From Terriglobia bacterium (GTDB lineage Bacteria; Acidobacteriota; Terriglobia; Terriglobales; Acidobacteriaceae): DNA of 64,000 nt. How positions within the stretch are numbered: position 1 is the first letter of the stretch; each line of letters opens with the position of its first letter. The stretch spans positions 1 through 64,000 of the forward strand of contig JAIQFP010000010.1 in NCBI GenBank assembly GCA_020073165.1. Reading direction: 5' to 3'. Shown here in pieces: positions 11,155 through 28,960 of the stretch. Below the pieces are notes generated by a model. The model searched no databases. It had not been told where the DNA came from and saw only the letters and a list, made by a program, of their open reading frames with translations. The position numbers and the translations under genes are program-made.

Positions 11155-11230
11155 GGGCCCGTAGCTCAGCGGTTAGAGCAGTGGACTCATAATCCATTGG
11201 TCCCAGGTTCAAATCCTGGCGGGCCCACCA
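11155..11230 (+). tRNA. tRNA-Ile (CAU anticodon, lysidine-type)
   Basis: A full cloverleaf of 76 nt with encoded CCA. The acceptor stem GGGCCCG pairs with CGGGCCC, the D arm is GCTC/GAGC, and the anticodon loop is CTCATAA with CAT as anticodon. The T arm is CCAGG-TTCAAAT-CCTGG. The ACTCATAAT context matches the minor isoleucine tRNA whose C34 is converted to lysidine by TilS to read AUA, rather than initiator or elongator methionine tRNA. That identity comes from resemblance to known ileX-type genes. Confidence 0.93.
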
Positions 11231-27889: not shown

Positions 27890-28291
27890 TCAGTGGGACC
27901 GCTTGCGCACCGCGGAATTGGCCAACCGGTTGGCCTCCGCGTTGTGCTCGCGGTCAATGTGCGAAATGGTGAACTGGAGCGAGCGGGCTAGCTTGCGGCA
28001 CACCCAATTGAGGGAGTAGAGGCGAGGGCTGCGGCAGACATATTCCCCGTTCATCTGACGCACTACGACTTGCGAATCAGAGTACACATGCAGCGTCTTG
28101 GCCTTCAGCACCAATGCGCATTGCAGGGCTTCCAGCAGGGCCACGTACTCGGCCACATTGTTGTCCTGGCGGCCGATCCACTTGGCAATCTTGATGCGGG
28201 CTCCGGCGTTACCCTCAATAACTACGCCAATCCCGGATGGTCCCGGGTTCCCCAGCGAGCCGCCGTCCACGTAAGCTACCAACTCTGACAT
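27890..28291 (-). CDS. RNase H-like (RNase HI family) protein
   Basis: A 133-aa protein with the RNase H fold: YVDGGSLGNPGPSG supplies the first catalytic Asp, AEYVALLEAL the Glu, VYSDSQVVV the second Asp, and HNAEANRLAN the last acidic position. The shape is that of the 'reverse transcriptase-like' RNase HI family (RnhA/YpdQ type), which cuts RNA in RNA-DNA hybrids. There is no basic handle as in E. coli RNase HI. It is convergent with the EamA gene. Confidence 0.88.
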   Translation of the reverse strand: MSELVAYVDGGSLGNPGPSGIGVVIEGNAGARIKIAKWIGRQDNNVAEYVALLEALQCALVLKAKTLHVYSDSQVVVRQMNGEYVCRSPRLYSLNWVCRKLARSLQFTISHIDREHNAEANRLANSAVRKRSH

Positions 28292-28510
28292 TGCGTCCGG
28301 TGTCTGGCTCCACCATGCTTTAGAAGATTTCGAACGTCAAGTTAATAATTTGTTTCATCCACTCTTTCGTAAGTTTTCTGGGCACGGTGGAAGATACTGT
28401 GGAAAAAGCCTCCGGAGATTTGTTCGTGGTCTGGAAGAGTCGCTGGTTCAATGGCTTGCATTTTTCGAAATGCACAGAAAAAGATTCACAGGCTGCACCG
28501 AAAAGCGGCG

Positions 28511-28538
28511 TTGACATTTTTTATCAGAATGTTAGGGT
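28511..28538 (+). promoter_or_regulatory. Sigma70-type promoter for the structured RNA
   Basis: A consensus -35 hexamer TTGACA (28511-28516), a 16-bp spacer and TAGGGT (28533-28538) preceded by TG one base upstream (extended -10). The predicted start is about 28545, just before the structured region. It points at no nearby open frame. Confidence 0.6.
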
Positions 28539-28544
28539 AGCTCC

Positions 28545-28800
28545 CGTCGACGGCTGAAAGGGTTGGCTTAAATAAAATTTTGCCGATCCGAAGTAAGCTG
28601 GGTGATCCGGTTCGGTGGGGCAACCCGCTGAACGGCCAGACCCGAAAAAACCGGCTTGATCTGCGAGGATGGGCCGGGGTTTGGAACTGCGAAAGCAGTG
28701 ATCGCATCAGGGGCTGTGACGGTGCATGTCTCCACGCTGTTGGCTCCCTCGCAGGAGCTAGTGGCTAGAGCATAACCAATGTCACGGCCCTTCCTATTTT
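28545..28800 (+). ncRNA. Candidate structured RNA, about 250 nt, class not recognised
   Basis: Hairpin 1 is a 10-bp stem (28610-28619 with 28624-28633) capped by GCAA. Hairpin 2 pairs 28636-28642 with 28678-28684 and, inside it, 28651-28655 with 28673-28677. Hairpin 3 is a 5-bp stem (28686-28690 with 28695-28699) capped by GAAA. An 80-nt composite hairpin (28711-28790) holds about 34 pairs: 28711-28720 with 28781-28790, then 28721-28723, 28726-28731 and 28732-28735, then 28741-28747 with 28754-28760. All non-canonical pairs are G.U on this strand. A T-rich run (TTCCTATTTTT) follows the last stem like a terminator. It could be a free-standing RNA or a leader of yraN-galT. It shows none of the hallmarks of tmRNA, RNase P, SRP, 6S or the riboswitches I know. 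Confidence 0.6.
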
Positions 28801-28960
28801 TCCCCCGAGTTTCCTTTTGTAATGCTGCCTTGGCGCAAGTTCTGCGGCCATGCCCACCGCGCAAATCGTTGACCTAAAGCTCCGGTCAGTCGTCACAGAC
28901 TTGCCGTGCGACAACTGTGATGCTGGAACTGCCCTATTGCGTACGGTTGGACCTGAATCC

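Follow-up and report, generated by a model that had tools for sequence, protein, structure and literature searches.

A structured RNA of soil Acidobacteria and a divergent RNase HI paralogue form a candidate RNA–protein unit

A contig of a Terriglobia bacterium (Acidobacteriaceae; assembly GCA_020073165.1, contig JAIQFP010000010.1) carries, just upstream of yraN-galT, some 250 nucleotides that a first-pass annotation had proposed to be a structured non-coding RNA with its own promoter. The locus therefore raises two questions: whether such an RNA gene is real and, if it is, what the RNA works with. We analysed the first 64,000 nucleotides of the contig, referred to below as the window, together with homologous loci in other genomes.

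The two strands of the region differ in their folding. The plus strand folds with an energy of -119.6 kcal/mol (z -4.1), a value that none of 200 shuffles equalled, whereas the minus strand folds no better than its shuffles (z -0.2). This supports the plus-strand assignment, which had been made from five G.U pairs (28614-28629, 28616-28627, 28639-28681, 28715-28786 and 28742-28759), and all five recur at these exact coordinates in the predicted structure.

The predicted fold consists of a 5' hairpin, a multibranch domain and a long 3' arm (Table 1). The 5' hairpin has a conserved internal loop, in which GAAA (28556-28559) faces GAAGUA (28590-28595). This loop resembles a bulged-G motif, a likeness only. 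Three hairpins lie within the multibranch domain: one with a GNRA loop (28620-28623), one with an 8-nt A-rich bulge (CGAAAAAA, 28643-28650) and one with a GAAA loop (28691-28694). Both tetraloops had been described before and are confirmed by the homologues, the L5 loop being GNRA in 41 out of 41 and the L9 loop GAAA in 39 out of 41. The 3' arm, previously put at 80 nt and about 34 pairs, has 33 pairs and runs into the T run. All of the hairpins described and the arm are present, and what the description had left unlisted is the helix that closes the multibranch domain, the bulge and the GAAA/GAAGUA loop. Likewise unlisted is a candidate contact between two loops, GCGA and UCGC, which is paired in 90.8% of alignment cells and is nearly invariant, with one compensatory change. 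Because it is mostly invariant and some RNA copies have lost it, we consider this contact plausible, short of proven.

Table 1. Positions of the features of the RNA/RNase HI locus in the window.
Feature	Position	Strand	Details
RNase HI-family gene	27890-28291	-	133 aa; RVT_3/RNase_H (Pfam); RNA-linked subfamily, subgroup A, N121
DnaA-box-like 9-mer	28398-28406	-	TTTTCCACA; between RNase HI gene and RNA
TTGCAC-type element	28493-28498	+	CTGCAC in this locus; separated from the -35 box by 12 nt
-35 box	28511-28516	+	TTGACA; from sequence, kept across copies
Extended -10 element	28530-28538	+	TG-n-TAGGGT; TAGGGT at 28533-28538; spacer to -35 box 16 nt
Structured non-coding RNA	28545-28801	+	about 256 nt; fold z, covariation, covariance-model matches; T run 28797-28801 taken as the end
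5' hairpin	28551-28600	+	28551-28555/28596-28600 and 28560-28567/28582-28589; helices 1 and 2 of the model
Multibranch domain	28602-28705	+	closing helix 28602-28607/28700-28705; helices 3-8 and 10 of the model
Candidate loop-loop contact	28663-28752	+	GCGA 28663-28666 with UCGC 28749-28752
Long 3' arm	28709-28792	+	84 nt; 33 pairs in the window; helices 11-13 of the model

A comparison of homologous copies shows that this structure has been maintained. Alignment A3 contains 20 copies that were oriented and trimmed, and it was not fitted to a model. RNAalifold predicts 80 pairs in it, 35 of which have compensatory changes. None of 500 shuffled controls reached the real alignment in any measure, and every structure slid along it did far worse than the real one. 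A larger alignment, of 41 full copies and four short reverse-strand matches, was fitted to the model and is therefore biased in its favour. In it 95.2% of cells pair under the 84-pair model, slid structures pairing at just 32–43%, and two-sided (compensatory) changes occur at 55 of the 84 pairs; in the long 3' arm they occur at 25 of the 33 model pairs. Conservation and covariation in relatives, which the first-pass annotation had named as a check, are thus found in both alignments. A protein-coding gene is unlikely and was rejected as an explanation: the lengths of the homologues cover all three values modulo 3, and the plus frame is open in no more than 3 of the 41, in support of the earlier statement that no coding frame explains the region.

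Nearly all homologues retain TTGACA-N16/17-TAnnnT and the sequence from GUCGACGG onward. The promoter described earlier is in place with its TTGACA, its 16-nt spacer and the TG before TAGGGT. TAGGGT agrees with TATAAT at 3 of 6 positions only. For this reason a strict consensus scan leaves the promoter unscored, and the evidence for it is its conservation across homologues. The same scan found no textbook terminator. In summary, the covariation in two alignments and the conserved promoter and start region bear out the proposal of a structured non-coding RNA, and 28545-28801 is almost certainly a real structured RNA gene, which would be expressed from this promoter.

The RNA has no match in Rfam 15 at either the gathering or a relaxed threshold, in agreement with the view that no known RNA class explains it. 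At E values up to 10, the only match was a spurious one of 15 bits to a snoRNA on the opposite strand, and there were no Rfam matches at the RNA copies in L181, L186, L194, L196, L212 and L217. A tRNA gene at 11155-11227 is the only Rfam match at the gathering threshold in the window. 6S RNA (RF00013), also a stand-alone bacterial structural RNA, was considered and rejected, as the genome has a separate 6S RNA (G000:C23:112773-112961); each of the six genomes searched, whether it carries the RNA described here or not, has such a separate 6S RNA. The Acido-1 and Acido-Lenti-1 motifs (RF01686, RF01687) are structured RNAs reported from Acidobacteria (PMC2864571), and neither matches the RNA region even at a relaxed threshold.

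Of 61 close genomes, 13 gave a match to the RNA in a DNA search. The covariance model R1 located it in 16 of the 299 genomes of a class sample, and a 396-genome sample of the phylum added nothing new apart from a single weak and partial match over 46 positions (E 0.009). Among the named public contigs, nearly all of those in which a copy was confirmed are Acidobacteria MAGs (Acidobacteriaceae, Candidatus Sulfotelmatobacter, Terriglobales and others). A plasmid collection gave no match, and none of 15 pattern matches on viral contigs was confirmed by the covariance model. The matches in family f7 (G190 and G242), which are on contigs of 5.5-5.9 kb, may be binning errors.

As to what the RNA may work with, its conserved neighbour lies on the upstream side. 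There, a gene for an RNase HI paralogue, absent from the first-pass annotation, is divergent from the RNA. The earlier placement upstream of yraN-galT is true of this locus, yet it is misleading as a framing, since the conserved neighbour is the RNase HI gene. Of the 299 genomes in the class sample, 13 have the linked RNase H subfamily and every one of these has the RNA; the subfamily is missing from all of the RNA-negative ones. A protein search of the 61 relatives found two to three RNase HI genes per genome in each of the 13 RNA-positive ones and no more than one in the 48 RNA-negative ones. Fisher p-values for the co-occurrence are tiny, but they ignore the relatedness of the genomes and are descriptive only. 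In whole genomes and named contigs the gene pair is nearly always divergent and usually 190-400 bp apart, typically about 250 bp, and on public contigs each RNase H match in the vicinity of the RNA is divergent. Among the other families that flank the RNA within 6 kb, none is common to more than 4 of 15 genera.

There are exceptions to this arrangement. In G004:C38, the RNase HI gene is about 4 kb from the RNA and points in the same direction. G179 and G199, which have diverged RNA copies, and G242, where the RNA is on a 5.9-kb contig, are RNA-positive without a linked RNase H; G191 has the linked gene but, at the threshold used, lacks a second RNase HI. Genomes contain one to four RNA copies, and the genome of the window has two, the second being at G000:C10:36907-37162. 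The extra copies stand alone, without RNase H. In the RNA tree, many branches of which are weakly supported, copies that stand alone are interspersed with linked ones, which suggests that the gene has duplicated repeatedly and on its own. Tandem copies occur in G124, G094, L109 and L078; in the last of these (L078:2883-3381) two copies stand head to tail with zero spacing, the second scoring 170.6 bits versus 226.9. Two copies are shortened to about 200 nt. One (L117:4668-4871) adjoins an RNase H match of only 47 residues, and the other (L082:2345-2541) is on a 3.4-kb contig that carries the label Verrucomicrobia, which may be a binning error.

Elements between the two genes are conserved as well. 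TTGCAC-N12-TTGAC is strongly over-represented, being present in 31 of 35 RNase H-linked loci. A wider regulon of this promoter was considered and rejected, as all five exact matches to the full pattern in eight genomes precede RNA copies. TTWTNCACA, a DnaA-box-like pattern, has 44 matches in 31 of the 35 linked loci, with 0.6 expected from the neighbourhood; most of these 9-mers lie around -147 relative to the start of the RNA, in many cases at one fixed position. Several diverged stand-alone copies (L205, L207, L215, L217 and L218) are preceded by CRP-like sites of the TGTGA-N6-TCACA type, which stand about where the main RNA copies have TTGACA. This suggests that these copies are under different control.

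The RNA is paired with one clade of RNase HI. The linked proteins (n=23) form a single clade against 31 housekeeping RNase HI sequences, with support of 100/96. A structure predicted with a pLDDT of 94 has a TM of about 0.9 to type 1 RNases H, and the protein agrees with the RNase HI family in its fold and its Pfam match. The family's four acidic residues are all present in subgroup B; in subgroup A the fourth is replaced by Asn. Three catalytic positions (D9, E48 and D72) are conserved, and the fourth has changed from Asp to Asn in all 44 readable subgroup A proteins. Because the three proteins of subgroup B retain Asp there, Asn at this position is not necessary for the link to the RNA. Both linked subgroups share D43, C86 and C98, where all 31 housekeeping rows have T, V and A. 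A higher charge of the linked protein was dropped as evidence, as its median pI is 8.7 versus 8.2 and the ranges overlap widely.

RNase HI of Sulfolobus tokodaii (PDB 2EHG/3ALY) has the same type 1 RNase H fold, with a TM of 0.87-0.88 to the linked protein, and N121 aligns with its D125. According to a review (PMC9719913), it cleaves double-stranded RNA as well as hybrids, and D125 matters much more for the former activity than for the latter. In contrast to subgroup A, the S. tokodaii enzyme has Asp at this position, and it has no known RNA partner.

Conserved linkage to and co-occurrence with one protein family, both of which are seen here, are what is expected of an RNA with a dedicated protein partner. 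One RNA copy is in nearly all cases adjacent to an additional RNase H gene, and this suggests an undescribed RNA–protein pair. The explanation that we tentatively prefer is that 28545-28801 is a stand-alone RNA gene that works with the divergent RNase HI paralogue, likeliest as a ribonucleoprotein. The RNase HI-fold protein would bind double-stranded parts of its RNA, and the RNA would store, target or restrain the enzyme. The Asp-to-Asn change may let the protein hold its RNA without cutting it. A bolder version, which we think unlikely, is that the paralogue is the first known RNA-dependent RNase H, working only as a ribonucleoprotein with its own RNA; its Asp-to-Asn site would hold duplex RNA uncut and still act on RNA-DNA hybrids.

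The linkage could instead reflect only a shared control region or co-inheritance. The main rival, a possibility to be taken seriously, is a trans-acting regulatory RNA that acts on mRNAs or a general protein and is tied to RNase HI by the shared divergent control region, with no complex being formed. The RNA's own promoter and T run would fit such a role, as would the conserved elements between the two genes, the RNA copies elsewhere without RNase H and the CRP-like sites before some diverged copies. However, this leaves unexplained why the linked RNase H subfamily is found only in RNA-positive genomes, and the fold, which is compact, heavily paired and equipped with GNRA loops, does not resemble a simple antisense sRNA.

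A type III-like toxin-antitoxin system, in which the RNase H would be a toxin restrained by the RNA, is improbable. That the protein subfamily is never found without the RNA, while the RNA is found without the protein, is expected if the protein needs the RNA. However, the two genes are divergent and do not form one transcript, and the protein has an RNase HI fold, which is not a known type III toxin fold. Type III antitoxins have short tandem repeats; these are absent from the RNA, which is one folded unit. With regard to retrons and RNA-guided nucleases, no second neighbour family is conserved across genera, and the 5' end of the RNA is conserved and not variable.

A cis-acting leader or riboswitch of yraN-galT can be practically dismissed. 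It would suit the position of the RNA here, and yraN is downstream in the sister genome too. However, of the homologous loci examined, just the one in G001, of the same genus, has yraN in its vicinity, which makes the proximity accidental. Furthermore, flanking families are not conserved across genera, the genes downstream vary, and the first downstream ORFs, from rough gene calls, are on either strand. Equally remote is an RNA linked to the chromosomal replication origin, where it and RNase H would act on primers or R-loops. The DnaA-box-like 9-mers in the intergenic region might suggest this, as might a weak minimum of the cumulative GC skew at about 28 kb of the window. The idea found no support: in four genomes the 134-400 kb surrounding the locus show no consistent switch of skew; of six genomes, five have dnaA on another contig than the locus and the sixth has it some 4 Mb off; no cluster of TTWTNCACA-like boxes adjoins dnaA; and each genome has several dispersed copies of the RNA.

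The preferred ribonucleoprotein would not be without parallels. OLE RNA with the Oap proteins and bacterial Y RNA with Ro (Rsr) are stand-alone structured RNAs with a partner encoded nearby, and the RNA described here likewise stands alone with a candidate partner gene close to it. Unlike in those systems, the candidate partner is an RNase HI paralogue, and the RNA matches no Rfam family in sequence or structure. We found no paper on the RNA or on its pairing with RNase H, and the main texts of two large surveys of non-coding RNA mention neither Acidobacteria nor RNase H.

These findings strongly support a new class of structured RNA, which has so far been seen in a single family of uncultured soil Acidobacteria and, possibly, in a few outliers. 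As the RNA has a candidate protein partner, its function is directly testable. If the pair is indeed a ribonucleoprotein, it would represent a new role for the RNase HI fold, for which the Asp-to-Asn change provides a concrete biochemical prediction.
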